Source: Tenacibaculum dicentrarchi (GTDB lineage: Bacteria; Bacteroidota; Bacteroidia; Flavobacteriales; Flavobacteriaceae). From it: DNA of 64,000 nt. Under the pieces are notes generated by a model that was given only the letters and a program-made list of their open reading frames with translations, ran no database searches and was not told the DNA's origin. A program made the position numbers and the translations under genes. The stretch covers positions 62,001-126,000 of the forward strand of contig NZ_OESZ01000012.1 in assembly GCF_900239345.1 (NCBI RefSeq), given 5' to 3'. Below, piece by piece: positions 4,110 to 52,720 of this stretch (position 1 is its first letter; each line of letters starts with the position of its first letter).

Positions 4110-5666
4110 ATGAAAAACATAGAAATCCTTTGGGTTGATGATGAAATCGATTTATTAAAGCCACATATTTTATTTTTAGAAAAAAAAAATTACTCCGTAA
4201 CAACCGCTACAAATGGTGCTGATGCTATTGATTTAGTAGATGAAAACAATTTTGATATTGTTTTTTTAGATGAAAACATGCCAGGAATAACAGGCTTAGA
4301 AACTTTGGCATTGATTAAACAAAAAAACGCCAATCTTCCGGTGGTAATGATTACCAAAAGTGAAGAAGAAACCATAATGGAAGAAGCTATTGGTTCTAAA
4401 ATTGCCGATTATTTAATAAAACCCGTTAATCCGAACCAAATATTATTAAGTTTAAAAAAAAATTTAGATAATTCTCGATTAATTTCGGAAAAAACAACGG
4501 CTAGTTATCAACAAGAATTTAGAAAAATTTCTATGGATTTAGCCATGGTGAATTCACATGAAGAATGGATTGAACTATACAAAAAACTAATACACTGGGA
4601 GTTAGAACTAGAAAACATTAATGATATAGGGATGCTTTCTATTTTAGAATCTCAAAAATCAGAAGCAAATTCACAGTTTTTTAAATTTATCAAAAAAAAT
4701 TACCAAGAATGGCTTACTAGTTACGATAAACCAACATTTTCACATACCTTATTTAAAGATTTTATTGTGCCTGAACTTCCTAAAAAAGAAAATGAAAAAG
4801 GGGTATTATTCGTTGTTTTAGATAATTTAAGGTATGATCAATATCGTGTTTTAGAACCTTTTATAAATACCTATTATAAAAAAGAAGAAGAGCATTCCTA
4901 TTACAGTATTTTACCTACAGCTACACAATATGCTCGTAACGCCATTTTCGCTGGATTAATGCCCTTAGAAATGGAAAAAAAACATCCTAATTTGTGGAAA
5001 AATGATACCGATGAAGGTGGAAAGAATTTATACGAAGCTGATTTTTTAGAAGCACAGATAAAAAGGTTAAATTTAAATATTAAACACGAATATTATAAAA
5101 TTGTATCGCTTAAAAGCGGAAAAGAATTAGCAGACAATTACAACGGTACAAAGCAAAACGATTTAACGGTTATTGTATATAATTTTGTTGATATGTTATC
5201 GCATGCTAAAACAGAAATGGAAGTTATAAAAGAATTGGCGGGTGATGACAAAGCCTACCGATCATTAACTGTTAGCTGGTTTAAAAATTCGCCTTTGTAT
5301 GAAATTATTAAAAAGGCCAAAAAATTAGGGCAGAAATTAATTATAACAACCGATCACGGAACAATTAATGCCAAAAACTCTACAAAAGTTGTTGGTGATA
5401 AAAATATCAGTTCAAATTTGCGTTATAAAACAGGAAGAAGCTTAACCTATGAAAATAAAGATGTATTTGCGGTTCAAAACCCTAAAGACATTTTTTTACC
5501 AAGCGTAGCCATAAATAGCCCGTTTATTTTTGCCAAAGAAGACTTGTTTTTTGCTTATCCGAACAACTACAATCACTTTGTGAAGTACTTTAAAAACACC
5601 TATCAACACGGAGGAATATCATTAGAAGAAGTGATTATACCCTGTGCGATTTATAGCCCTAAATAA
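4110..5666 (+). CDS. porX: Response regulator PorX with PglZ domain (type IX secretion control)
   Basis: 518 residues, the same length as Porphyromonas PorX. Residues 1-120 are a receiver domain with the acidic pair D10/D11, the phosphoacceptor D54 (FLDENMPG), the switch Thr in VMITKSE and the Lys in LIKPVNP. Instead of a DNA-binding domain it carries a PglZ/alkaline-phosphatase-like domain with metal-site segments VLDNLRYDQYR, TATQYARNAIF and TTDHGT. In the known family PorX works with the kinase PorY and sigma factor SigP to control the type IX secretion system, and the PglZ domain is a zinc phosphodiesterase acting on oligonucleotides. PorY is not in the window. The upstream region is shared with the divergent HD gene. 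Confidence 0.93.
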   Translation: MKNIEILWVDDEIDLLKPHILFLEKKNYSVTTATNGADAIDLVDENNFDIVFLDENMPGITGLETLALIKQKNANLPVVMITKSEEETIMEEAIGSKIADYLIKPVNPNQILLSLKKNLDNSRLISEKTTASYQQEFRKISMDLAMVNSHEEWIELYKKLIHWELELENINDIGMLSILESQKSEANSQFFKFIKKNYQEWLTSYDKPTFSHTLFKDFIVPELPKKENEKGVLFVVLDNLRYDQYRVLEPFINTYYKKEEEHSYYSILPTATQYARNAIFAGLMPLEMEKKHPNLWKNDTDEGGKNLYEADFLEAQIKRLNLNIKHEYYKIVSLKSGKELADNYNGTKQNDLTVIVYNFVDMLSHAKTEMEVIKELAGDDKAYRSLTVSWFKNSPLYEIIKKAKKLGQKLIITTDHGTINAKNSTKVVGDKNISSNLRYKTGRSLTYENKDVFAVQNPKDIFLPSVAINSPFIFAKEDLFFAYPNNYNHFVKYFKNTYQHGGISLEEVIIPCAIYSPK

Positions 5667-5733
5667 TACTACAACTAGCCTTAAAACAAATTTAATAAAA
5701 CGAAACACTTTTAATTTGTAGAAATTTAGTAAA

Positions 5734-5824
5734 GATGCCTAGCCCCGATTGAAGCTTTGTTTGAGCTCCTTTTTTTGATTTTTCTTCAAAAAAAGAGCGA
5801 GTGCGGAAAGCGGGAAATTGCTTC
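5734..5824 (-). repeat. Interspersed hairpin repeat R3, copy a
   Basis: One of three copies in the window (others at 31234-31329 and 38906-39002), here in the opposite orientation. The conserved flanks are TTTCCCGCTTTCCGCACTCG on one side and GAGCTCAAACA...ATCGGGGCTAG on the other. The centre is a hairpin with 10-base perfect arms (5769-5778 and 5786-5795). It sits between porX and tsaE, both plus strand, and may act as a terminator for porX. It fills most of the 227-base gap; I see no open reading frame in it. Confidence 0.75.
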
Positions 5825-5880
5825 AAATTATTTTTCTACAAATTTTAAAACTTGAGTAACAATAGTATTTAACTCTTCAT

Positions 5881-5888
5881 TATTTTTG
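5881..5888 (+). promoter_or_regulatory. Candidate -7 box of tsaE
   Basis: TATTTTTG matches TAnnTTTG and ends 5 bases before the tsaE ATG, so a transcript from it would be leaderless or almost so. No TTG is at the ideal -33 spacing. Confidence 0.4.
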
Positions 5889-5893
5889 CAACT

Positions 5894-6313
5894 ATGAACA
5901 AAAATTACGCTTTAAACGAACTAGCTCAAATAGCCGAAGAAATTATTAAAAACGTACCGCATAAAGTTTTGCTTTTTGATGGCGATATGGGTGTTGGCAA
6001 AACTACTTTAATAAAAGAAATATGTGAGAAATTAGGTGTTAATGACGTTGCTCATTCACCCACTTTTTCATTAGTAAACGAATACCAAACAAAAAATAAC
6101 GATACAGTATATCATTTTGATTTTTACCGTATTGAACAAGAAGAAGAGGCCTACGACATGGGTATTGAAGAGTATTTATACAGTAATGATTGGTGTTTAA
6201 TTGAATGGCCTGAAAACGTTAAAAATTTACTACCTTTAGATGCTGTTACTATTAAAATTAATCTTTTAGAAAATGGACAACGCAATATTCAATTAAAAAC
6301 TAACAAACTATAA
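5894..6313 (+). CDS. tsaE: tRNA threonylcarbamoyladenosine biosynthesis ATPase TsaE
   Basis: 139 residues, normal for TsaE. The Walker A loop GDMGVGKTT is at residues 30-38, followed by SPTFSLVNEY and the HFDFYRI segment typical of the family, and IEWPENV near the end. TsaE is the ATPase that works with TsaB, TsaC and TsaD to make t6A at position 37 of ANN-decoding tRNAs. tsaC lies elsewhere in this window (27023-27580). The stop and the next ATG share one base (TAATG), so it is translationally coupled to the alanine dehydrogenase-like gene. Confidence 0.95.
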   Translation: MNKNYALNELAQIAEEIIKNVPHKVLLFDGDMGVGKTTLIKEICEKLGVNDVAHSPTFSLVNEYQTKNNDTVYHFDFYRIEQEEEAYDMGIEEYLYSNDWCLIEWPENVKNLLPLDAVTIKINLLENGQRNIQLKTNKL

Positions 6314-15256: not shown

Positions 15257-15479
15257 AGCTTTTAAAAATTTTATTCCAAAAATTTTTGCAATATCAAAAT
15301 AGTATGACAAGGAGTTAAAACCCCTTGTTTTAAGAATAAAAATGCGTCAAAGGGTTTTTATTTCAGTTTCACACCCTGGTTTGCCGTAGTTCTTCGCTTT
15401 ATGCGATGCTGAAATAAATTCAGCATGAAGTTTAAATGTTTAAAAAAAACTTTAGTTAAAATTTAAACAGAGACTCTTA
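15254..15479 (+). repeat. Interspersed MITE-like repeat R1, copy a
   Basis: The 307-base gap before the DUF4105 gene is mostly this 226-base element. The left end reads TTAGAGCTTTTAAAAATTTT and the right end AAATTTAAACAGAGACTCTTA, imperfect inverted repeats with TTA at both outer edges. Inside are an imperfect palindrome (AAGGAGTTAAAACCCCTTG), a CAGTTTCACACCCTGGTTTG segment and GCTGAAATAAATTCAGCATG. Other copies are at 17892-18186, 19761-19896 and 52585-52720. It contains no transposase. Confidence 0.8.
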
Positions 15480-17891: not shown

Positions 17892-18186
17892 TAGAGCCTG
17901 TTTAAATTTCATCTAAAAAAGTTTTGTAACATCAAAATAAGAAATCAAATCTGTCAAACTGAATTTAGTTCAGTTTCGCATCCTGATTTGCCGTAGTTAT
18001 TCCCTTTTTTTGATAATTCTTGTCAATTCGAGTGATTTTAATGACTAAAAGGAATTAAAATTGTATCGAGAATTTGAGTTGTTTTATGTTGATGAATTTT
18101 ATACAAAAAAGTTCTCGATACAATTTTTTTGAAGGAAAAAAATAACTCGAACTGACAGTTTATTTTAATTTTTAAACAGGCTCTTA
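17892..18186 (+). repeat. Interspersed MITE-like repeat R1, copy b
   Basis: The 429-base gap between the two barrel genes holds this 295-base element. Its ends are near-perfect inverted repeats, GAGCCTGTTTAAATTT and its complement AATTTTTAAACAGGCTC, each flanked by TTA. The left half carries the family segment CTGAATTTAGTTCAGTTTCG. The right half has been replaced or split by a second palindromic element (18021-18157). No gene in it looks real. Confidence 0.82.
18021..18157. repeat. Palindromic repeat R2 nested in R1 copy b
   Basis: A 137-base unit bounded by TGTCAATTCGAGT and its near-complement ACTCGAACTGACA. Inside it a perfect 16-base inverted repeat (18057-18072 and 18112-18127, core TTGTATCGAGAA) flanks a 39-base loop. 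I recall similar units as multicopy intergenic repeats in marine flavobacteria; this is the only copy here. Confidence 0.75.
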
Positions 18187-19735: not shown

Positions 19736-19760
19736 AATAATTTATAGTTGAAAAATCGAA

Positions 19761-19896
19761 TCCGTCAAAGGAATTTTATTTCAGTTTCGCATACTGATTT
19801 TCCGTAGTTATTAATTTTATGTGATTCTAAAATAAATTCAGAATGACGTTTATACCTTAAAAAAGATACTTTATTTAAAATTTAAAGAAACTCTTA
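19761..19896 (+). repeat. Interspersed MITE-like repeat R1, copy c (left end missing)
   Basis: Right-hand part of the R1 family: TTATTTCAGTTTCGCATACTGATTT, then TCTAAAATAAATTCAGAATG and a right end AAATTTAAAGAAACTCTTA. The left inverted repeat is gone, so this is a decayed copy just after xerD. Confidence 0.7.
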
Positions 19897-19967
19897 TACT
19901 TTTTGATTTTAGCATTACACAAAATCAGAAAAAAATATAAAATTGAGCATTAAGGTAAAAAACAACT

Positions 19968-20042
19968 AAAATATAAAGAAAATATAAAGAAAATATAAAG
20001 AAAATATAAAGAAAATATAAAGAAAATATAAAGAAAATATAA
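19968..20042. repeat. 11-base tandem repeat, six perfect copies
   Basis: AAAATATAAAG repeated six times without error (19968-20033) plus a partial seventh copy. The unit length is close to one helical turn, so the A4 tracts are in phase and the DNA is probably bent. It lies between xerD and the 3' end of the SRP RNA gene. The whole 611-base gap holds R1 copy c, this array and the SRP RNA. Confidence 0.92.
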
Positions 20043-20083
20043 TTTTTACAGAAATGTAAAACGAAAATAAAAGACACAAAAAA

Positions 20084-20181
20084 TGGCAAGCTACCTACAT
20101 CACACTGCTACAACCTAATACCCTTGCTGCGTTCCCGCCCTGGGGGAGTTCAAAGGGAGCTAGTTGTGTAGAACTTGCCGT
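20084..20181 (-). ncRNA. ffs: Signal recognition particle 4.5S RNA
   Basis: On the minus strand the RNA runs from GGCAAGTTCTACACAAC to GTAGGTAGCTTGCC; the ends (GGCAAG / CTTGCC) pair. The apical domain-IV core reads AGGGCGGGAACGCAGCAAGGG, with the GGAA tetraloop and the conserved GCAGC bulge side of SRP RNA. About 98 bases, the short bacterial form. It guides Ffh and FtsY in co-translational targeting. A T6 run follows the 3' end and a small hairpin (20044-20061) lies beyond it. Confidence 0.9.
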
Positions 20182-20183
20182 GG

Positions 20184-20213
20184 CAAATATACATCCTTTT
20201 TTGAAACTGACAA
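20184..20213 (-). promoter_or_regulatory. Promoter of the SRP RNA gene
   Basis: Minus strand: TTG (20213-20211), a 19-base spacer, then TATATTTG (20191-20184). This matches the Bacteroidota housekeeping consensus in both boxes and spacing, and places the start a few bases before the paired 5' end of the RNA. It is the best promoter in the window. Confidence 0.75.
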
Positions 20214-30287: not shown

Positions 30288-31103
30288 TTAAACTGCTACA
30301 TCATATTCTCTTAATGCATCGTTTAATGAAGTTTTCTTATTCGTACTTTCTTTACGTTTACCAATAATTAAAGCACAAGGAACTTGAAATTCTCCTGCTG
30401 GAAATTTCTTGGTGTAACTACCAGGAATCACTACTGAACGAGCAGGAACAACTCCTTTCGTTTCAACAGGTTCATCACCAGTAACATCAATAATTTTAGT
30501 ACTCATTGTTAATACAACATTTGCACCTAAAACCGCTTCTTTTTCAACTTTTACACCTTCCACAACAATACAACGAGAACCAATAAAAGCACCGTCTTCT
30601 ATAATTACTGGAGCTGCTTGTAATGGCTCTAAAACACCACCAATTCCTACACCGCCTGATAAATGTACATTTTTACCAATCTGAGCACAAGAACCTACCG
30701 TTGCCCAAGTATCAACCATTGTTCCTTCATCGACATAAGCACCAATATTTACATAACTTGGCATTAAAATAGTTCCTGCCGAAATGTATGCTCCATGACG
30801 TGCAACTGCATTTGGCACAACTCTAATTCCTTTTTCAGCAAAGTTTTTCTTTAATGGAATTTTATCATGATATTCAAAAATACCAGCTTCTAAAGTTTCC
30901 ATTTTCTGAATAGGGAAATATAAAACAACGGCTTTTTTTACCCACTCATTAACTTGCCAACCATTATCAGTAGGTTCAGCTACACGTAACGCACCTGAAT
31001 CTAATAAATCAACTACTTCTCTAATGGCGTTAATCGTAGTTTCTTCTTGTAATAAATCACGATTTCCCCACGCTTTTTCTATAATATCTTGTAATGTTGT
31101 CAT
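30288..31103 (-). CDS. dapD: Tetrahydrodipicolinate N-succinyltransferase DapD
   Basis: 271 residues, the usual length. An N-terminal helical domain is followed by a left-handed beta-helix with VRVVPNAVARHGAYI, YVNIGAYVDEGTMVD, GGVGIGGVLEPLQA and VIPGSYTKKF. It transfers succinyl from succinyl-CoA in the lysine/diaminopimelate pathway, needed for peptidoglycan. It stands alone. A good -7 box is at 31126-31133. Confidence 0.95.
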   Translation of the reverse strand: MTTLQDIIEKAWGNRDLLQEETTINAIREVVDLLDSGALRVAEPTDNGWQVNEWVKKAVVLYFPIQKMETLEAGIFEYHDKIPLKKNFAEKGIRVVPNAVARHGAYISAGTILMPSYVNIGAYVDEGTMVDTWATVGSCAQIGKNVHLSGGVGIGGVLEPLQAAPVIIEDGAFIGSRCIVVEGVKVEKEAVLGANVVLTMSTKIIDVTGDEPVETKGVVPARSVVIPGSYTKKFPAGEFQVPCALIIGKRKESTNKKTSLNDALREYDVAV

Positions 31104-31233: not shown

Positions 31234-31329
31234 GAAGCAATTTCCCGCTTTTCGCACTCGCTTTTTTTATTTTTTCAAAAAGAAAAATAAAAAAGAGCTC
31301 AAACAAATGCTTCAATCGGGGCTAGGCAT
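31234..31329 (+). repeat. Interspersed hairpin repeat R3, copy b
   Basis: Flanks TTTCCCGCTTTTCGCACTCG and AAGAGCTCAAACAAATGCTT with ATCGGGGCTAG, as in the copies at 5734 and 38906. The central hairpin pairs 31261-31276 with 31282-31295, with an A/T pair at the position that is G/C in copy c. It occupies the middle of the 330-base gap between dapD and ruvX, which are divergent, so it cannot be a plain gene-end terminator here. Otherwise the gap holds two promoter boxes. Confidence 0.78.
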
Positions 31330-31409
31330 TTTTGCATCTATTTAAAAATTTTAACACTATTTATTATTTAAAAAACAATAGAAGTACAATTTATAAAGGT
31401 TTAAAACTT

Positions 31410-31417
31410 TATTTTTG
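31410..31417 (+). promoter_or_regulatory. Candidate -7 box of ruvX
   Basis: TATTTTTG, matching TAnnTTTG, 16 bases before the TTG start of ruvX. Confidence 0.4.
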
Positions 31418-31433
31418 TAAAAAATAAAAACAT

Positions 31434-31844
31434 TTGGGACGAGTTTTAGCCATCGATTTTGGTAAAAAAAGAACAGGAATTGCAGTTACTGATGAATTAC
31501 AAATTATTGCATCAGGATTAACGACAGTTAATACAAAAGAATTAATTTCTTTTTTAAAAGACTACATAAAAAAAGAAAATGTAGCATTATTTATCATTGG
31601 AAAACCCAAGCAAATGGATAATTCCGACAGCCAAAGTGAAGCCTTGATACTTCCTTTTTTAGAAAAATTAGCAAAATCAATACCTAACATTCCTATCAAA
31701 AGAGAAGACGAACGTTTTACCTCAAAAATGGCGTTTCAAACCATGATTGATAGCGGACTCAACAAAAAACAACGTCAAAACAAGGCTTTAGTCGATGAAA
31801 TAAGCGCTACAATCATCTTACAGTCGTATTTATACAATAAATAA
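31434..31844 (+). CDS. ruvX: Putative Holliday junction resolvase / pre-16S nuclease RuvX (YqgF)
   Basis: 136 residues. The RNase H-like fold shows LAIDFGKKRTGIAVTD (first catalytic Asp), IIGKPKQMDNSDS, REDERFTSKMA and KALVDEISATIILQSYL. The family takes part in 16S rRNA 5'-end maturation and may cut junctions. The start must be TTG, because the catalytic Asp lies seven residues in and the first internal ATG is near residue 60. def follows after 55 bases. Confidence 0.9.
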   Translation: MGRVLAIDFGKKRTGIAVTDELQIIASGLTTVNTKELISFLKDYIKKENVALFIIGKPKQMDNSDSQSEALILPFLEKLAKSIPNIPIKREDERFTSKMAFQTMIDSGLNKKQRQNKALVDEISATIILQSYLYNK

Positions 31845-31899
31845 TTTTATACATAAACCATTCTTTGTATTTTCGTAACCTTAAAAAATTTAAAAACAC

Positions 31900-32487
31900 A
31901 TGATTTTACCCATTGTTGCTTACGGAGATCCCGTATTACGTAAAGTAGGAACAGAAATCGATAAAGATTATCCGCAGTTAGAAAAATTAATTGCGAATAT
32001 GAAAGAAACAATGTACAATGCGCAAGGTGTCGGGTTGGCAGCACCGCAAATTGGTAAAGACATTCGTTTATTTTTAATCGATGCGTCACCTTTTGCTGAT
32101 GATGAAGATTTATCCGAAGAAGACAGAAAAGCCTTAGAAAACTTTAATCATGTATTTATAAATGCAAAAATCATTAAAGAAGAAGGTGAAGAATGGGCTT
32201 TTAACGAAGGTTGTTTAAGTATTCCGAATGTTCGTGAAGATGTTTTTCGTCAAGAAACCATTACTATTGAATATCAAGATGAAAATTTTGACAAACACAC
32301 CAAAGTTTTAAGCGGTTTAGCGGCACGTGTTTTTCAGCATGAATACGATCATATTGATGGTGTTTTATTTACTGATAAATTATCGACCTTAAAAAAACGC
32401 TTGATTAAAAAGAAATTAGAAAATATTTCTAAAGGAAAAGTAGACGCAGGTTACAGAATGCGTTTTCCTAATGCCAAGAAAAAATAG
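31900..32487 (+). CDS. def: Peptide deformylase
   Basis: 195 residues. The three motifs are GVGLAAPQIG (44-53), EGCLSIP with metal ligand C105, and QHEYDHIDG with ligands H147 and H151 and catalytic E148. It removes the N-formyl group from new proteins. An acidic insertion (ASPFADDEDLSEEDR) follows the second strand, as in other Bacteroidota. Probably transcribed with ruvX and the next two genes. Confidence 0.95.
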   Translation: MILPIVAYGDPVLRKVGTEIDKDYPQLEKLIANMKETMYNAQGVGLAAPQIGKDIRLFLIDASPFADDEDLSEEDRKALENFNHVFINAKIIKEEGEEWAFNEGCLSIPNVREDVFRQETITIEYQDENFDKHTKVLSGLAARVFQHEYDHIDGVLFTDKLSTLKKRLIKKKLENISKGKVDAGYRMRFPNAKKK

Positions 32488-32520
32488 TCTTTTATATAAA
32501 GACACTAAAAACACCATAAT

Positions 32521-32940
32521 ATGGAATTTAACAAAGTTATAGCAGTTACTGGGAAACCAGGATTATTTGAAATTATCTCTCAAACAAAAACAGGAGTAAT
32601 CGTTCGTTCAATTGTTGACGGTAAACGTTTTCCTATTGCAGCAACTCACAATGTAAGTTTATTAGAAAACATTGCTATTTATACTTACGAAGAAGAAGTG
32701 CCTTTAGCAATCATACTTAAAACTATGGATGAAAAACAAGAAGGTAAAGATGCACTTTCTCATAAAGAAAGTAACGATACTTTAATGGCTTATTTTGAAG
32801 AAGTTTTACCAGGTTTCGACAAAGAACGTGTATATGCTTCTAACATTAAAAAGGTAATTCAGTGGTATAATACTTTAGCTGCAGCTGGTTTTGATTTCAA
32901 AACCTTAGAGAAAGTAGCAACAACAGAAGAAGCTAAATAA
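32521..32940 (+). CDS. DUF5606 protein
   Basis: 139 residues. The N-terminal half (VIAVTGKPGLFEIISQTKTG, VRSIVDGKRFPIAAT) looks like a small beta domain and the C-terminal half is helical (EEVLPGFDKERVYASNIKKV). It matches DUF5606, a flavobacterial family of unknown function that regularly follows def. No signal peptide or membrane segment, so cytoplasmic. It is 33 bases after def and 3 bases before mazG. Confidence 0.82.
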   Translation: MEFNKVIAVTGKPGLFEIISQTKTGVIVRSIVDGKRFPIAATHNVSLLENIAIYTYEEEVPLAIILKTMDEKQEGKDALSHKESNDTLMAYFEEVLPGFDKERVYASNIKKVIQWYNTLAAAGFDFKTLEKVATTEEAK

Positions 32941-32943
32941 ATT

Positions 32944-33759
32944 ATGAATACTCGTAAGCAACAATTAGACGCTTTTAACCGTTTGTTAGACATTATGGAC
33001 GAACTTCGAGAGCAATGTCCGTGGGATAAAAAACAAACTTTAGAGAGTTTGCGTCATTTAACGATTGAAGAAACTTACGAATTAGCAGATGCCATTCTGG
33101 ACAATGATTTAGAAGAGGTTAAAAAAGAATTAGGCGATGTGTTATTACACATCGTCTTTTATGCTAAAATTGGTAGCGAAAAAAAAGCGTTTGATATTGC
33201 TGATGTCGCCAATTCAATTTGTGATAAATTAATTCATCGTCATCCGCATATTTATAGCGATGTGGTGGTTAAAGATGAAGAAGAAGTAAAACGAAATTGG
33301 GAAAAATTAAAGCTAAAAGAAGGAAAAACTTCTGTTTTAGAAGGTGTTCCAAAGAGTTTACCTGCTTTGGTAAAAGCTAGTAGAATCCAAGAAAAAGTTG
33401 CTGGTGTTGGTTTTAAATGGGAAAAACCTAAGCAAGCTTGGGAAAAAATTCAAGAAGAAATTCAGGAATTAAACCAAGAAATAAACATCAAAAATAAAGG
33501 CGATAATAAAAATAACAATCAAGCTGATAATCAAGAACGTATCGAAAAAGAGTTTGGCGATGTGTTATTTTCACTGATTAATTACGCAAATTTGATGAAA
33601 GTAAATCCTGAAAATGCCTTAGAAAAAACTAATAAAAAATTTATCAATCGTTTTCAATATTTAGAAGAAGAAGCCAAAAAACAAGGCAAAGAAATTTCTG
33701 ATATGACTTTAAACGAAATGAATACTTATTGGGAAAAATCAAAAGATTTTTTTGAGTAA
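32944..33759 (+). CDS. mazG: Nucleoside triphosphate pyrophosphohydrolase MazG
   Basis: 271 residues with two MazG domains. The first holds CPWDKKQTLESLRHLTIEE and EETYELADAI with KKELGDVLLHIV; the second, after KASRIQEKVAGVGFKWE, has KEFGDVLFSLINYANLMKV. The acidic EExxE metal sites are intact. It splits nucleoside triphosphates to monophosphates, cleaning the pool. A short Asn/Lys-rich stretch (IKNKGDNKNNNQADNQ) interrupts the second domain and is likely a disordered loop. Confidence 0.92.
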   Translation: MNTRKQQLDAFNRLLDIMDELREQCPWDKKQTLESLRHLTIEETYELADAILDNDLEEVKKELGDVLLHIVFYAKIGSEKKAFDIADVANSICDKLIHRHPHIYSDVVVKDEEEVKRNWEKLKLKEGKTSVLEGVPKSLPALVKASRIQEKVAGVGFKWEKPKQAWEKIQEEIQELNQEINIKNKGDNKNNNQADNQERIEKEFGDVLFSLINYANLMKVNPENALEKTNKKFINRFQYLEEEAKKQGKEISDMTLNEMNTYWEKSKDFFE

Positions 33760-33795
33760 AATTCGCTAGTATTTTTCATTTTTCTTATTTTTTTC

Positions 33796-34542
33796 ATGAA
33801 TATCATCATAATTACAGGCGGAAGCAAAGGTATTGGAAAGGCATTGACTCAAAAATATGCTTCTGAAAATTACACCGTTTTTTCATTAGCTAGAACTTCT
33901 TATGAAATTTCAGAAATAAAAAATATTAAAAATATTAAAGTTGATTTAGCTGATAGCATAGCAACTCAAACTATTTTTACGGCTCTTTTAGATAAAATTA
34001 TCCATCAAAATTCAACTTCTAAAATAACGTCAATTACCTTAATTAATAACGCTGGGCGTTTAGGTAAAATAGCCCATTTAGAAAACTTAGAAGCCAATGA
34101 TATTGCAAAATCTATGCAATTAAATATTACTACGCCACTTATTTTATCAGGATTATTTATCAAAAAAACACAACATCTAGCTTGTAAAAAGCAAATTATC
34201 AATATTTCATCTGGCGCAGCCAAAAAACCATATGAAGGCTGGAGTGTTTATTGCACATCAAAAGCAGCAATCGATATGCTAACAAAAACCATAGCCTTAG
34301 AACAAGCCGAACTTCAAAATGGCGTAAAATGTATCGCTATTTACCCTGGTGTTGTTGCTACAGATATGCAAACTAAAATCAGAAATACCCACAAAAATGA
34401 TTTTAAAAATGTACAACGTTTTATCGATTTAAAAAATCAAAATAAATTATACACACCTAGTTTTGTTGCCGATACTATTTATAAAATTGATACTGAAAAT
34501 CAGTTAAAAAGTGGCGTTATTTTTGATATTCGGAATATTTAA
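33796..34542 (+). CDS. Short-chain dehydrogenase/reductase
   Basis: 248 residues of the classical SDR fold: TGGSKGIG (7-14), the NNAG-like NNAGRLG, INISSGAAKKP with catalytic Ser, and YCTSKAA for the Tyr and Lys. The C-terminal PGVVATDMQTKIR is like sepiapterin- or benzil-reductase-type SDRs. The substrate is unknown. The stop codon overlaps the stop of the convergent priA; the TTAA at 34539-34542 supplies both. Confidence 0.87.
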   Translation: MNIIIITGGSKGIGKALTQKYASENYTVFSLARTSYEISEIKNIKNIKVDLADSIATQTIFTALLDKIIHQNSTSKITSITLINNAGRLGKIAHLENLEANDIAKSMQLNITTPLILSGLFIKKTQHLACKKQIINISSGAAKKPYEGWSVYCTSKAAIDMLTKTIALEQAELQNGVKCIAIYPGVVATDMQTKIRNTHKNDFKNVQRFIDLKNQNKLYTPSFVADTIYKIDTENQLKSGVIFDIRNI

Positions 34543-36980
34543 TACGCATCTACATCCATAATAAAACGAATCGACCTAAAATCTTTCACACTTTCAAAAG
34601 AATTTTTAACCCTAATAATTTGTTCTTTTGTTTTTCCTAACGATTGTTTTGGCGGAATTTTAATTACTAAATTTTTAATATATAAATTTCGAACACGAGA
34701 TACGGCAGGCGTTGTAGGTCCTAATACATTTTCAGCAAACACATTTTGCAATGATTTCACTAACCAATTTACACCCGTTTCTACACGAACAGGGTCTTTA
34801 TGTTTTAGCGTAATTTTAATCAATTTATAATATGGTGGATACTTAAAATTCCAACGTTCCTTCAATTGTTCTTTATACATTTCGGCGTAATTAGTGGTCG
34901 AAACTTGCTGTAATATTTGATGATTCGGATTGTAGGTTTGTATCGCAACATTTCCTTGTTTTTTGCTACGTCCTGCTCTACCCGACACCTGAACCATTAA
35001 CTGATACGCTCTTTCGTGGGCTCTAAAATCGGGGAAATTTAACATCGAATCGGCACTTAAAATCCCCACTAACGATACATTTTCAAAATCCAAGCCTTTC
35101 GATAACATTTGTGTTCCTACTAAAATATCAATTTCTTGTGCCTCAAAGGCTCCAATTATTTTTTGATAACCGTATTTTCCACGTGTGGTATCTAAATCCA
35201 TTCTTCCGATGTTATAATCAGGAAATAAAGTTTTTAGTTCTAGCTCAATTTGCTCTGTTCCAAAGCCTTTTGTATTAAGTGTTGTACTTCCACAAGCCCC
35301 GCAATTATTAGGCATCGCACGTTGGTAGCTACAATAATGACATTTTAATTCTCGCCTAAATTTATGAAATGTTAAACTCACATCACAATTTGGGCATTCT
35401 GGTGAAATACCACAAGTATCACATTCTACAACGGGAGAAAAACCACGCCTGTTTTGAAATAAAATAACCTGTTCTTTTTGCTCCAAAGCATCGGTAATCA
35501 TGGTTAATAACCTATCGGAAAAATGCCCTTTCATTTGCTTTTTTCGATATTTTTCTTTGATATCAATCAGTTCGATTTTTGGCAGTTGAATGTTTCCAAA
35601 ACGACGGGTTAATTCAACAAAACCATATTTATTTTGCTTGGCATTAAAATAACTTTCTAACGATGGCGTTGCCGAACCTAACAATACTTTTGCCTTGTGT
35701 AAATGTCCTAAAACAATTGCCGAATCGCGGGCATTATAGCGTGGTGATGGTTCAAATTGTTTGTACGAAGTTTCATGCTCTTCATCAATTACAATTAATC
35801 CTAAGTTTGAAAATGGTAAAAAACCAGCCGAACGAGCGCCTAAAATTATCTGTGCTTTTGGCTTATTTTCTAACACGTTATTCCAAACTTCTACCCGCTC
35901 ATTCATGGAATATTTTGAATGAAAAACAGATATAAAATCGCCAAAATAACGTTCTAATCTACTAATTATTTGTGTTGTTAATGCTATTTCGGGCAATAAA
36001 AACAATACTTGTTTTCCTTCTGCAACAACTTCTTTTATCAGTTTTACATAAATTTCTGTTTTCCCTGAACCTGTAACCCCGTGTAATAAGGTTACATTTT
36101 GAGTTTCGAAAGATGTTTTAATTTCATTAAAAGATTGTGTTTGAAAATCGTTTAATTCTTTAATTTGATTGGTTTCTCCTTCAAAATTAATTCTATCGGT
36201 TTGAATTTGATAAAACTCAAAAATTTCTTTATCAACCAAGGCTTTTAATATTGCTGATGATACGCCTGATTTCTCTTCTAATTCTTTTGCTTTTATTGGT
36301 TTTTTACTACTTGCTAATTGAAAATAAGTAAGCAATGCTTCCCGTTGTTTTTTTGCTCTTGATAAATTTTCTAATAATTTTTGAAGGGCTTCATTCGATT
36401 CATAAACAGCATTTAAACGAACAAATTTTACTAATTTTGGTTTATAGGTTTCATAAATTTCTTCTTTGATAAAAGCGACTTCTTTCTGAATTAGAGAATC
36501 AATAATTGGTAAAGTTGTTTTTTTACTGATAATATTTGCAACTTCATGAATTGTAAGTTGTGAACTATTTTGAAGGGCTTCAAAAATTAAAAATTCATCA
36601 TCAGTTAAAATAGTTTCATCGGTAAAAGTGTCATTTTTATAGATAATTGTTTCACTTTCTAGCATAAAAGCCGACGGTAACGAAGCTCTATAAACATCGC
36701 CTAACGAACACATATAATAGCTCGAAATCCATTGCCAATGCTTTAATTGACGTTCGTTTACAATAGGAAATTCATCTAAAATTTGATGAATATCTTTTGC
36801 TTTATACGATTCAGGTACATTTTGATGAATATCAAAAACAAGTGCTGTATAAATTTTACTTTTCCCAAAAGAAACCGCCACTCGCATTCCTTTTTTAAGA
36901 AACGAAAATTCGGCTTTATTTACACAATATGTAAATGTTTTTTGTAATGGAATAGGTAATATAACGTCGATGAAATACAT
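34539..36980 (-). CDS. priA: Primosomal protein N' (replication restart helicase PriA)
   Basis: 813 residues. An N-terminal 3'-end binding domain, then helicase motifs GVTGSGKTEIY, LGARSAGFLPF, VIDEEHETSYKQ, LLGSATPS and QVSGRAGRS. The eight zinc-binding cysteines are all present (CDTC, CPNC, CHYC, CGAC). PriA reloads the replisome at stalled forks. It shares its stop-codon bases with the convergent SDR gene. Confidence 0.95.
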   Translation of the reverse strand: MYFIDVILPIPLQKTFTYCVNKAEFSFLKKGMRVAVSFGKSKIYTALVFDIHQNVPESYKAKDIHQILDEFPIVNERQLKHWQWISSYYMCSLGDVYRASLPSAFMLESETIIYKNDTFTDETILTDDEFLIFEALQNSSQLTIHEVANIISKKTTLPIIDSLIQKEVAFIKEEIYETYKPKLVKFVRLNAVYESNEALQKLLENLSRAKKQREALLTYFQLASSKKPIKAKELEEKSGVSSAILKALVDKEIFEFYQIQTDRINFEGETNQIKELNDFQTQSFNEIKTSFETQNVTLLHGVTGSGKTEIYVKLIKEVVAEGKQVLFLLPEIALTTQIISRLERYFGDFISVFHSKYSMNERVEVWNNVLENKPKAQIILGARSAGFLPFSNLGLIVIDEEHETSYKQFEPSPRYNARDSAIVLGHLHKAKVLLGSATPSLESYFNAKQNKYGFVELTRRFGNIQLPKIELIDIKEKYRKKQMKGHFSDRLLTMITDALEQKEQVILFQNRRGFSPVVECDTCGISPECPNCDVSLTFHKFRRELKCHYCSYQRAMPNNCGACGSTTLNTKGFGTEQIELELKTLFPDYNIGRMDLDTTRGKYGYQKIIGAFEAQEIDILVGTQMLSKGLDFENVSLVGILSADSMLNFPDFRAHERAYQLMVQVSGRAGRSKKQGNVAIQTYNPNHQILQQVSTTNYAEMYKEQLKERWNFKYPPYYKLIKITLKHKDPVRVETGVNWLVKSLQNVFAENVLGPTTPAVSRVRNLYIKNLVIKIPPKQSLGKTKEQIIRVKNSFESVKDFRSIRFIMDVDAY

Positions 36981-37114
36981 GATAAATTTTAGTGATTTTT
37001 CGGTTGAAAATATCTATTTAATGAAATTCACTAAAATGGATAATATCAAAATTACAAAAAAAATATTAAATTTTAGCACGGGGTTTTATGCCTTTTTTTA
37101 ACAGATATATATCA

Positions 37115-37249
37115 TAGAGACGCCGATTTATCGTGTCTTTATCTGTTGCTAAAAATCTGAAGTAAATGCAATGCTGAAATAAATTCAGAAATACGTTGAA
37201 GAATTTTAAAATAAATTATAATAAAAGACGCGATAAATCGCGTCTCTAC
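37115..37249. repeat. Palindromic units flanking an R1-like core
   Basis: Two related palindromes, TAGAGACGCCGATTTATCG... (37115-37140) and AAAGACGCGATAAATCGCG... (37224-37248), face each other around a 80-base core containing GCTGAAATAAATTCAGAAAT, the segment also seen in R1 copy a. Each flank is a REP-like hairpin of the type AGAGACGCGATTTATCGCGT. It lies in the 293-base gap between priA and the VF530 gene, both minus strand. Confidence 0.78.
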
Positions 37250-37273
37250 CATACCATATTTCTATAAATAAAT

Positions 37274-37492
37274 TTAACGAATAAATTTCAAATAAAAATT
37301 CTCTACTTTGGTTCTTGCCCAAGGTGTTGTTCTTAAAAATTTCAAACTCGATTTATAAGTAGGATTATTTTTAAAACAATTAATATTTAAAATTTCTCCT
37401 AACTCTTCCCAACCATATTCTAAGTATAATTCTTCTAAAATGGTCGCTAATTTTATTCCGTGAAGCGGATTATTTGGTTGTTCTTGGCTCAT
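37274..37492 (-). CDS. VF530 family DNA-binding protein
   Basis: 72 residues: [33 protein letters not shown] and [17 protein letters not shown] match the VF530/DUF2132 family, small helical proteins reported to bind DNA. The biological role is unclear. A -7 box (minus strand TATTTTTG at 37522-37529) lies 30 bases before the start. Confidence 0.9.
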
Positions 37493-37521
37493 ATTTTGAC
37501 TCGTAATTTTATCTAAAAAAA

Positions 37522-37529
37522 CAAAAATA
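37522..37529 (-). promoter_or_regulatory. Candidate -7 box of the VF530 gene
   Basis: Minus-strand TATTTTTG, a full match to TAnnTTTG; no -33 TTG at good spacing. Confidence 0.35.
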
Positions 37530-37717
37530 AAGGTTCTATTTGATTAATTCATCTAATAACCTTCTTACTTTAATCAGCTTAACTTCACTTCTTATTTTTA
37601 CAAAACAATATCAACACATTTTTAGGTAATAATTCATTAAAACATTAACCAAAATAAGGTTATTTATTTGTCATTTTTCAATATTTTAGCATATACTTTT
37701 AAATAAAAAATTTTAGA

Positions 37718-38800
37718 ATGAAAAATACTGCATTAACACATATTCACGAAGCTTTAGGAGCAAAAATAGTTCCTTTTGCGGGTTATAACATGCCTGTACA
37801 ATACGAAGGAATCAATATAGAACACGAAACGGTTAGAAAAGGCGTTGGTGTTTTTGATGTAAGTCACATGGGAGAATTTTTCTTAAAAGGAGAAAATGCC
37901 TTAGCTTTAATTCAAAAAGTAGCCACAAACGATGCTTCAAAATTAGTTCCTGGTAAAGCGCAATATAGCTGTATGCCAAATGCTGATGGCGGAATTGTAG
38001 ATGATTTAATTATTTACATGATTGCTGAAAACGAGTATATGTTAGTTGTAAACGCATCTAACATTGAAAAAGATTGGAATTGGATTGCTAGCCATAATGA
38101 CTTAAATGTTACTATGGAAAACCGTTCTGATGACTGGTCTTTATTAGCTATTCAAGGACCAAAAGCTGTAGAAGCTATGCAGTCGTTAACAGCTGTAAAT
38201 TTATCAACCATTAAATTTTACACCTTTGAAATTGCTGATTTTGCAGGGATTCCTAACGTTGTTATTTCGGCAACGGGGTACACAGGTTCTGGTGGATTTG
38301 AAATTTATGTAAAAAACAAAGATGTAGAGCAACTTTGGAAAAAAGTTTTTGAAGCTGGTGCAGACTGGAATATTAAACCAATCGGTTTAGCAGCTCGTGA
38401 TACTTTACGTTTAGAAATGGGTTATTGTTTATATGGTAACGATATCGATGACACAACTTCTCCTTTAGAAGCTGGTTTAGGTTGGATTACTAAATTCACA
38501 AAAGACTTTGTAAATTCTGAAGCGTTAAAGGCTCAAAAAGAAGCTGGTGTTACTAAAAAATTAGTTGCTTTTGAATTAACAGAGCGTGGTATTCCTCGTC
38601 ATGACTATGAAATAGTTGATGCTGAAGGTACTGTAATTGGTCGTGTTACTTCTGGAACAATGAGTCCTTCTTTAGGCAAAGGAATTGGTTTAGGATACGT
38701 TACTAAAGAAAATTCAAAATTAAATTCTGATATTTTTATTCAAGTTCGTAAAAAACAATTAGCTGCAAAAGTGGTTAAATTACCTTTTTACAAAGGATAA
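37718..38800 (+). CDS. gcvT: Aminomethyltransferase (glycine cleavage T protein)
   Basis: 360 residues. [57 protein letters not shown] and [20 protein letters not shown] are the folate- and aminomethyl-binding motifs of GcvT. It passes the methylene group of glycine to tetrahydrofolate and releases ammonia. The other glycine cleavage genes are not nearby. Codon use is rich in common codons, suggesting good expression. A terminator follows at 38828. Confidence 0.95.
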
Positions 38801-38827
38801 GAAAATTTTATCATATATATATAAAAG

Positions 38828-38853
38828 CAACTCTTTTTAAGGGTTGTTTTTTT
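38828..38853 (+). terminator. Terminator of gcvT
   Basis: Seven-base stem CAACTCT / AGGGTTG (one G-T pair), 5-base loop, then a run of seven T. Confidence 0.75.
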
Positions 38854-38905
38854 GTTAAATTATTTTAAAATAAGGTTTTTCATCGACTATTTAGAAGAAT
38901 TATTT

Positions 38906-39002
38906 GGAGCTATTTCCCGCTTTCCGCACTCGCTTTTTTTGTTTTTTTAAAGAAAAAAACAAAAAAGAGCTCAAACAATTGCTACAATCGGGGCTAAACA
39001 TC
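38906..39002 (+). repeat. Interspersed hairpin repeat R3, copy c
   Basis: Flanks TATTTCCCGCTTTCCGCACT and GAGCTCAAACAATTGCTACA with ATCGGGGCTAA. The hairpin pairs 38933-38948 with 38953-38967, with a G-C pair where copy b has A-T. It lies after the gcvT terminator, between converging genes. Confidence 0.78.
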
Positions 39003-39076: not shown

Positions 39077-40156
39077 CTATTTAGGTTTAATTACATACAA
39101 GCCTTTATTATCCGCATCAAAAGCATTTGAAGGATAAAAAACCTTTAAAAAACTTACTGAATTTTTATCTGTATATATTTTAGGCAACACATAATAAGAT
39201 ACATAATGTACAGGGTTTAAAAAAGAACCCACATATTTAATTCCTTGTTCTTTAAATTTAAATACCTCATTTTTTATTTTGAGTTCAAGATAAATTGTTC
39301 CCATAAATGACACAGGAATGTTGGTATATACAATTGTTCCATGAGTATTTTGTTTTTGATAAAAATGTGATTTTATCCCTTCATATTTTGGATAGATTAA
39401 TTTATTTTCTTTTGATACATCAACAAAATCGGGAGTTCCTGAAAATTGTTCATCACCTGACGACCAGGTAGCGTATTTATTATTTTCAGGATTTTTAAGT
39501 AAAATTAATTTGGTGTATTTCTCTGGATATTTTGTTAAAATTTTACCTTTTGAATAAAATTTTATTCCATTATTATCAGCTTCCTTTTTTGAAATATAAA
39601 TTCCGAACCAGTCATTATCAATTTTAAAATATACTTTGTAATTTTTAGCCCCGTATGTTTCGGTATTCGCATAAATAACAATACTTGCTTTATGGTAATA
39701 ATCTTCTATTATATTTAAAAAACCTGCCAACTCTAATTGATTTCCCGAAGCTTTAATTACTTTTTTAAGTATTGTTTGTTTTACTTCTTTTTGGGTTAAA
39801 TCATACACTGCTTCTTCTGTAAAAATATACGACCCTAAATCGGAAAAGCTAATATTATCGGTTCTTTCAATATTAAATACTATTTCTCCTAAGTTATTTA
39901 TTTTTATAATATCGTTACCGCTATTGAGTATAAAGTAATTTCCTTTTTCATCATAAGAAATTGAATTATAACTACTTTCAGATATTTTTAATATTTCTGA
40001 TTTTTCACTATAAACACCTTCTTTTAAAGCTGGATAACTATCATACTCTTTCTTTTTAAATAATGAATTAGACATTATATTTATAGTCGTACATTTTTGA
40101 ATAAAAACTAACAGTAAAAAACCCCATAGTAGCATATATTTATATTTTTTTATCAT
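39077..40156 (-). CDS. Unassigned secreted or membrane-anchored protein
   Basis: 359 residues. The N-terminus has a hydrophobic segment (MLLWGFLLLVFIQKC, about 8-22) ending at a Cys, a possible but non-canonical lipobox. The remainder is rich in Lys, Tyr, Asn and short beta-type stretches (SISYDEKGNYFILNSGNDII, IVIYANTETYG), with no motif I recognise. It could be a periplasmic or outer-membrane-attached WG/beta-propeller-like protein, but that is a guess. It lies between a large inverted repeat and a terminator, apparently a single-gene unit downstream of the efflux operon. Base composition is like its neighbours. Confidence 0.75.
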   Translation of the reverse strand: MIKKYKYMLLWGFLLLVFIQKCTTINIMSNSLFKKKEYDSYPALKEGVYSEKSEILKISESSYNSISYDEKGNYFILNSGNDIIKINNLGEIVFNIERTDNISFSDLGSYIFTEEAVYDLTQKEVKQTILKKVIKASGNQLELAGFLNIIEDYYHKASIVIYANTETYGAKNYKVYFKIDNDWFGIYISKKEADNNGIKFYSKGKILTKYPEKYTKLILLKNPENNKYATWSSGDEQFSGTPDFVDVSKENKLIYPKYEGIKSHFYQKQNTHGTIVYTNIPVSFMGTIYLELKIKNEVFKFKEQGIKYVGSFLNPVHYVSYYVLPKIYTDKNSVSFLKVFYPSNAFDADNKGLYVIKPK

Positions 40157-48247: not shown

Positions 48248-48296
48248 AAATATATTAAAAACCTTTATCCCGAAAGTTTGAATTATTTAAAATATA

Positions 48297-48464
48297 GGCA
48301 GGTCTCCTGGCTTGCGTCTTGTAATTGGTCTTCCCATTTCTAAAAAACAGTGACTAAAGAATTATTACAAGCTTTCTAGCTTACAGTTGCGGGAACAGCT
48401 TCGGTATTTAACCGAATTCCCTTTTAATTTGATGTTATGTTTTTAAACATCAAAACCTAAATTT
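48297..48464 (-). promoter_or_regulatory. Cobalamin (B12) riboswitch
   Basis: On the minus strand it shows AAGGGAATTCGGT, ACCGAAGCTGTTCCCGC followed by AACTGTAA, GTCACTG, GGGAAGACC, and the B12 box GCAAGCCAGGAGACCTGC close to its 3' end. These are the conserved cobalamin-riboswitch elements in the right order. It leads into btuB 50 bases further on, so high B12 should turn off btuB and the BtuG-like gene. The 340-base gap between btuB and cobU is otherwise promoters and AT-rich sequence. Confidence 0.93.
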
Positions 48465-48468
48465 TCGG

Positions 48469-48476
48469 CAAATGTA
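48469..48476 (-). promoter_or_regulatory. Candidate -7 box of the B12 riboswitch transcript
   Basis: Minus-strand TACATTTG, matching TAnnTTTG, just upstream of the riboswitch 5' end. No TTG at -33 spacing. Confidence 0.45.
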
Positions 48477-52584: not shown

Positions 52585-52720
52585 TAGTGGCAAATCAGGA
52601 TGAGAAACTGAACTAAATTCAGTTTGACGCATTTTTATTTTAAAACAAGGGGTTTTAACCCCTTGCCGTGCTATTTTGACATTACAAAAATTTTTAGAAT
52701 AAAATTTAAACAGGCTCTTA
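52585..52720 (-). repeat. Interspersed MITE-like repeat R1, copy d (one end missing)
   Basis: Minus strand: TAAGAGCCTGTTTAAATTTT, then the palindrome AAGGGGTTAAAACCCCTTG and GCGTCAAACTGAATTTAG and CATCCTGATTTGCC. It aligns with copies a and b; the far end is missing. It lies just after the BtuF-like gene. Confidence 0.78.

Follow-up and report, generated by a model that had tools for sequence, protein, structure and literature searches.

Flavo-1 (RF01705) is held in Rfam under the type 'Gene; sRNA', and genome annotations built on Rfam inherit this small RNA (sRNA) label. The family was one of 104 candidate RNAs of Weinberg et al. (2010) and is listed in the passages cited here as 'probably' RNA, not cis-regulatory, and from Bacteroidetes (PMC2864571). 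In a transcriptome study of Flavobacterium psychrophilum, the section on Flavo-1 reports matches lying indistinctly sense and antisense to transcribed regions, with many outside them (PMC9723704), and a 2022 review names the family among abundant sRNA families, giving no function where it does so (PMC9029176). We found no interpretation of Flavo-1 as a repeat or a mobile element in this literature, to which the supplement of the 2010 study may add. Here we analyzed three Flavo-1 copies in a 64-kb stretch of the Tenacibaculum dicentrarchi genome (contig NZ_OESZ01000012.1, positions 62,001 to 126,000; hereafter, the window), together with their relatives in other genomes. Our preferred reading, in which we place a little better than even confidence, is that Flavo-1 copies are non-autonomous interspersed repeats resembling the repetitive extragenic palindromic (REP) sequences.

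A preliminary description of the window, made from the sequence alone, had noted an intergenic hairpin present three times with conserved flanks. We found these copies at positions 5734-5824 (copy a), 31234-31329 (copy b) and 38906-39002 (copy c), and a repeat search of the window paired them with one another in direct and inverted orientation. A scan against Rfam (cmscan) assigned all three to RF01705, with scores of 51 bits for copy a, 46.7 bits for copy b and 48.2 bits for copy c, relative to a gathering score of 42. Because all three exceed the Rfam cut-off, the hairpins are copies of an already catalogued family, and their kind is not new; the observation is a correct, independent rediscovery of a known family. 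The remark that no function had been described agrees with the cited passages, none of which gives one, but it missed the existing Rfam entry. Copy a lies in a tandem gap, copy c in a convergent gap, and copy b, as had been pointed out, between divergent genes, specifically open reading frames (ORFs) at 30288-31103 on the minus strand and 31434-31844 on the plus strand.

The fold has two parts. A basal stem leads into an internal loop that is conserved and rich in purines (GATTGNA facing GNAAAG), and beyond it stands an apical hairpin of variable sequence. Scoring five basal pairs in each of the 181 distinct elements drawn from all loci examined gave 905 cells, of which 880 were Watson-Crick combinations, compared with a mean of 761 and a maximum of 783 among shuffles. 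Both sides had changed in 70 cells (shuffle maximum, 21), and further pair types numbered 6 (shuffle maximum, 5). Many of the 181 elements were retrieved through the Rfam model or through patterns in which letters of the inner stem P1 are fixed. This raises the number of paired cells, and the elements are also related to one another; for these reasons the shuffles overstate the significance. The double changes still count, because the patterns alone cannot create them. Covariation above background, the absence of which the preliminary description had named as grounds for refutation, was observed. The CCCG and CGGG segments of the flanks, recognized there as complementary, form a covarying helix in which pair P1a is C-G in 147 elements, T-A in 29, A-T in 3 and another combination in 2. 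The differing yet paired hairpin arms were also as described, with an A-T pair in copy b at the point where copy c has G-C, and GA/TC in copy a. A full pattern fits 33 T. dicentrarchi copies; at the first pair of their apical hairpin, 27 have T-A, 6 have C-G and none has a mismatch.

The remaining mismatches bear on which strand folds. The mismatches in 146 apical stems, read on the Flavo-1 strand, comprise 18 of G.T, 6 of A.C and 13 of other kinds, and all six A.C fall at the second C of the stem-base ATCC, a position that is also unpaired elsewhere. Read off the sequence of the Flavo-1 strand, the core GATTGNA/GNAAAG would give A.G, T-A, T-A, G.A, N.N and A.G, in which we take the A.G and G.A combinations to be sheared pairs. 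Because the apical mismatches are most often G.T and the core would carry A.G and G.A pairs on this strand, the proposal that one strand is the folding strand is supported.

These features also suit a genuine RNA, either an sRNA or an untranslated-region element, that would be transcribed and whose fold would bind a protein or RNA. Wobble pairs and purine-rich cores are common in RNA, and the covariation of the stems is strong. The Rfam type and the listing as a probable RNA (PMC2864571) point in the same direction. We nevertheless consider this explanation unlikely, if far from negligible, given that species of a single genus differ in copy number from none to more than 100, that the element shows no orientation preference relative to the upstream gene, and that the F. 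psychrophilum matches are, in the section cited, scattered without regard to transcribed strand (PMC9723704). The preliminary description had left two options, an RNA element or a transposable hairpin. A structure-conserved element is upheld; between the options, a spreading repeat is favored over an RNA gene because of copy number, patchy distribution and lineage-specific presence.

To describe this distribution, we used a set of 58 genomes of the genus, comprising the 2.8-Mb T. dicentrarchi genome (G000) and others (G001 onward). Of the long matches to named loci compared, the one of highest identity was to Tenacibaculum soleae (84% over 1,463 nt). Within T. dicentrarchi, a similarity search identified at least 40 copies with 85-100% identity to copy b. 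We also searched for the GTTTGAGCTC apical module with an exact pattern that comprises 26 fixed bases, two two-fold positions and a gap and takes both of the base types described below. This pattern matched 72+50 (122) times in T. dicentrarchi, 69+66 (135) times in G018 and 26+29 times in G008. It matched 30 of the 58 genomes, and a reversed-pattern control gave 0 matches in each of the 58, which puts the T. dicentrarchi count far above chance. With the Rfam model at E<=0.001 and strict filters, matches occurred in 49 of the 58 genomes, at 0 to at least 67 copies per genome; five of the nine zero-match genomes are 99% complete (G002, G003, G025, G035 and G049), one is 90% complete and three are incomplete. 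Rfam matches were present in at least 57 of 395 sampled genomes of the phylum, a lower bound under strict filters and with no more than 11 matches counted in any genome. Named genomes were scanned with a pattern that demands G after AGC and thereby misses the T. dicentrarchi type. This returned at least 119 stretches, and titles among the matches listed were all Bacteroidota except one Treponema. The mention in the preliminary description of similar sequences in other flavobacteria is borne out by the Rfam search of the genus and the scan of named genomes. The two Treponema copies stand about 2 kb apart, flank one large ORF and form no array, so a reading as an attC-like cassette array was rejected. 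Plasmid and phage collections gave no blastn match at E<=0.01. The 5' motif was present in 28 viral contigs, four of which (L167, L174, L181 and L182) also carry the 3' motif; L174, L181 and L182 share the same element, and in all four, where GC content is near 0.6, GGG is followed within 4-5 nt by a GCTCC box. Because this box was outside the search pattern, the viral elements are supported as truly related, with Rfam scores on L167, L174 and L181 of 25.5-27 bits, under the cut-off.

We next compared orthologous gaps. Relatives retain the two genes that flank copy b, and the element is present between them in 2 of 30 loci, those of T. dicentrarchi and G018; the other 28 gaps, of 6-938 bp, lack the core motif on either strand. 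In G008, whose compared flanks are 85-93% identical, the copy b gene pair is joined by a 64 bp gap. Both copies b and c are absent from G008, and copy c is present in G018. The compared contigs of G018 hold 15 copies, 12 of them shared with G000, one without an aligned flank, and two absent from G000 with both flanks aligned, of which one is partial. One T. dicentrarchi copy (L127 1207-3305; G000 C10:141207-143305) is split by nested insertion-sequence-like genes, judged by eye from ORFs of 150 and 334 aa, and is intact in G018. From these comparisons we infer that the element probably moves. As a separate matter, a 359-aa ORF beside copy c (window 39077-40156) is apparently missing in G018, where the flanks join just past the Flavo-1 copy.

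Genomic context was examined for 30 copies on three contigs with a simple ORF call, in which orthologous pairs are counted twice. Five copies that are not wholly intergenic were left out; the other 25 comprise 13 in tandem, 6 in convergent and 6 in divergent gaps, and the corresponding shares of intergenic length are 0.61, 0.16 and 0.23, so that placement is close to random. Of 35 T. dicentrarchi copies with genes on both sides, 18 point the same way as their 5' neighbor. A gene ends on the 3' side of the element slightly more often than not (24 of 38 T. dicentrarchi copies), as would be expected of a transcription terminator or an mRNA-protecting 3' element. This role is nonetheless very unlikely, as a search of copies a, b and c found no terminator-like site (a G+C-rich stem followed by a T run) and the 6 of 25 copies in divergent gaps are about the share expected by length; the earlier judgment that the hairpin is not only a terminator stands. 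Promoter-like matches in 8.4 kb around copies b and c numbered 33, fewer than in shuffles (41.9), and the one near copy b points away from it. The scan, whose consensus is not that of flavobacterial promoters, gave no sigma-70-like match in the 501 bp around copy a (5500-6000) and none immediately ahead of copy b on its Flavo-1 strand. These absences count further against the RNA gene.

If the element spreads as a repeat, one model would be a strict REP mobilized by RAYT, a Y1 HUH transposase. The style of spread is the same, T. dicentrarchi has one Y1_Tnp gene, and RAYT subclass 2.6 is described, in the passages cited, as mostly from Bacteroidetes and flanked by atypical secondary structures that also have copies in other parts of the genome (PMC6006769). 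However, the single T. dicentrarchi gene sits among a different repeat, GACGCGATAAATCGCGTC, and five genomes that carry 51-60 Flavo-1 copies each (G001, G008, G021, G029 and G053) lack any Y1_Tnp match at E<=0.001. At E<=10 there is none in G021 or G029, and the weak matches in the other three have E-values of 0.005 (G008), 0.026 (G001) and 0.35 (G053). Conversely, G002 and G035 have six Y1_Tnp genes each and no Flavo-1 match. This model is largely refuted, and we give it next to no weight. Independently of Flavo-1, palindromes of the form GACGCGAT..ATCGCGTC (window 37224-37247; L031 ~600-1810) cluster at the single Y1_Tnp gene and appear to form a RAYT/REP pair with it.

A second route would be that of an RNA-mediated retroposon, similar to a short interspersed nuclear element (SINE), in which T-rich sites would receive reverse-transcribed copies of a folded RNA whose 3' end is rich in A. 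An A-rich stretch does follow the GCTYC box described below, with A at +16 in 40 of 40 copies, and a few copies (L009, L030) adjoin a hairpin with a T tract. The tail is, however, not pure A and is partly conserved, and the occurrence of RVT_1 (at E<=0.001) in 8 of 13 high-copy genomes is set against none in the other 5 and its presence in 5 of 8 zero- or low-copy genomes. We regard this route as highly improbable. As a candidate mobilizer, Y2_Tnp was rejected because it is absent from 12 of the 13 high-copy genomes. Inspection by eye of the 25 largest clusters of 479 ORFs near Flavo-1 revealed no transposase; the recurrent neighbors look metabolic, among them presumably hmgA/hpd and nrdA/nrdB. 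In the loci examined there were no half elements around a gene, except for the copy split by insertion sequences.

Some features of the elements lie beyond the Rfam model, which spans 76 positions and ends before a GCTYC box; the two spacer lengths that precede this box, short (4-7 nt) in 129 elements and long (29-33 nt) in 53, are not described there. Of 198 elements, 145 have GCT at offset 3-8 after the inner stem, where shuffles give a mean of 6.9 and a maximum of 18; of the other 53 elements, 51 have it at offset 29-33, a range with no shuffle control, and two lack it. According to folding predictions, the box can pair with the AGC in TAGC. When the Flavo-1 strand of copies a, b and c is folded as DNA, the minimum-energy structures all contain this pairing; when it is folded as RNA, other bases pair at this place instead. 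AGC is invariant (198 of 198 elements), so the box pairing offers no covariation signal. A pairing scan of the long spacer gave no hairpin and no clear partner. Specifically, a hairpin in the long 3' spacer, or pairing of the spacer with the 5' flank, was rejected, with a best run of 3.83 compared with shuffled tops of 2.37-3.68 and 14.9 for an apical-stem positive control; it also failed in single examples. A larger inverted repeat around the element was rejected as well (score >=10 in 6 of 34 copies, shuffled mean 3.9 and maximum 6; score >=12 in one copy, copy a, shuffled mean 0.5).

In one T. dicentrarchi element with a similar core, the inner stem is flipped (GGG..CCC) and the outer stem is GCGTT/AACGC. 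A pattern for this second base type matched 44 of the 58 genus genomes, at up to 29 copies, with 0 matches to a reversed control in all genomes, and the partner half was found in 22 of 36 distinct stretches in a strict search and 32 of 36 in a relaxed one. In these 32, the letter before NAAAG varies (G 24, T 6, A 2), and the apical module is ATCC in 19, GTTTGAG in 12 and another in 1. The 3' strand has a 5-nt bulge or, in most strict matches, a small CCT..AGG-like arm, the stem letters of which co-vary in several elements. Both the GTTTGAGCTC and the ATCC modules occur on both base types. In ten second-base-type loci scanned with Rfam, five with the ATCC module scored 53-64 bits; of those with the GTTTGAGCTC module, L395 scored 27 bits and L373 24.2 bits, and L367, L375 and L392 gave no Flavo-1 row at E<=1. 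In addition, the linker after AGC has switched between whole variants known from other copies in 3 of 12 orthologous pairs of G000 and G018. From the linker switches and the mixing of modules, we infer that copies probably exchange sequence with one another.

Together, these observations appear to suggest a mechanism for the REP-like repeat. The element would spread by copying, with the factor supplied in trans, and this factor may recognize a folded single strand through the basal stem and the core loop. The folded form would be single-stranded DNA during replication, which seems likelier than RNA. The apical hairpin would act as a spacer that is free to change, and exchange between copies would both keep them alike and swap their apical modules. 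More tentatively, and with doubt outweighing confidence, Flavo-1 may belong to a larger, modular superfamily of selfish structured elements, of which it would be a single form. One core loop would hold together two base types (TAGC/GCTYC and GCGTT/AACGC) and no fewer than two apical modules, all of them exchangeable. Such a superfamily would extend across Bacteroidota, reach Treponema and GC-rich viral contigs, and travel in the form of folded single strands through the action of an enzyme class that has so far been connected with no repeat.

Several results weigh against the REP-like interpretation or parts of it. Specifically, 12 of 13 G000 copies on the compared contigs, the split one included, have a counterpart at the orthologous position in G018, and recent movement must therefore be slow. 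The remaining copy lies close to the end of a contig; one of its flanks aligns in G018, with no copy beside it. No clean empty site with a target duplication or sharp borders was found in the compared gaps, where exact borders were not obtained because the gaps are AT-rich and diverged. No mobilizing enzyme emerged from Y1_Tnp, Y2_Tnp, RVT_1 or the neighboring ORFs. The gap that we read as hmgA-hpd holds Flavo-1 in five loci from more than one genus, including Altibacter (L042, L043, L050, L055 and L225), antisense in all of them and about 15 nt or less from the upstream stop in L043, L050 and L225, and farther in L042 and L055. This could reflect an old shared insertion or a kept function, and positions shared across genera, which could mean retained function, also speak for the RNA gene. 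So does a weak sigma-70-like match (9/12) at 39046-39017, which precedes copy c by about 21 bp on its Flavo-1 strand. Regarding the fold, basal pair P2b tolerates C.A (6) and P2a G.T (7), so the strand asymmetry is not uniform; RNA folding z-scores of single copies are weak (-0.15 to -1.94), and single-copy DNA folds have z below -3 in 1 of 6. Finally, two of the zero-match genomes, G003 and G049, hold 1 and 2 second-base-type elements, respectively.

The features of the three copies are collected below.

Flavo-1 features in the window (positions counted from its first nucleotide)
Feature	Position	Strand	Remark
Copy a, TAGC through GCTTC box	5740..5824	+	Rfam match 5737-5821
Copy a, inner stem P1, 5' side (CCCG); partner CGGG 5811-5814	5744..5747	+	
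Copy a, variable apical AT-rich hairpin (TTTTTTTGA...TTCAAAAAAA); limits approximate	5770..5795	+	
Copy a, GCTTC box; GCT able to pair with AGC 5741-5743, 5-nt bulge (AAATT)	5820..5824	+	Minimum-energy DNA fold, not RNA fold
Copy b, divergent gene gap	31234..31324	-	Rfam match 31237-31327
Copy b, one side of inner stem P1; partner 31317-31320	31244..31247	-	
Copy c, convergent gene gap	38906..38996	-	Rfam match 38909-38999

Other elements of the window include a second interspersed repeat family (GTCAAA...CAGTTTCGCATCCTGATTTGCCGTAG and AAATAAATTCAG), present in both orientations at 15331-15467, 17938-18014, 19749-19885 and 52589-52660 (also 37166-37226). The Rfam scan placed a cobalamin riboswitch at 48280-48475 on the minus strand (116.5 bits). 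A small signal recognition particle RNA lies at 20080-20187, near head-to-tail 11-bp repeats (AAAATATAAAG) at 19957-20044.

If Flavo-1 is a dispersed repeat, the labels that mark its copies as sRNA genes mislead, and a sharper question takes their place, namely what factor copies a 75-110 nt hairpin to more than 100 places without the usual enzymes. The core loop and the exchangeable modules would offer a bait and a design for finding it.

Compared with the Flavo-1 family as catalogued, copies a, b and c share the conserved ends and core and exceed the gathering score, and the GCTYC box and two spacer lengths extend the element beyond the model. The likeness to REPs and REPINs is that Flavo-1 copies are short, structured, high-copy, extragenic, non-coding and patchy. 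They differ from these in a length of about 75-110 nt, in not requiring a Y1 transposase, and in the absence of the GTAG tag, the base before TAG being C in 37 and T in 3 of 40 T. dicentrarchi copies. As in miniature inverted-repeat transposable elements (MITEs), Flavo-1 is small and non-coding, with ends that are partly inverted (CCCG/CGGG). Unlike MITEs, it showed neither a target duplication nor a parent insertion sequence in the sites compared, which are diverged, and it has a mispaired core that is conserved between distant hosts.

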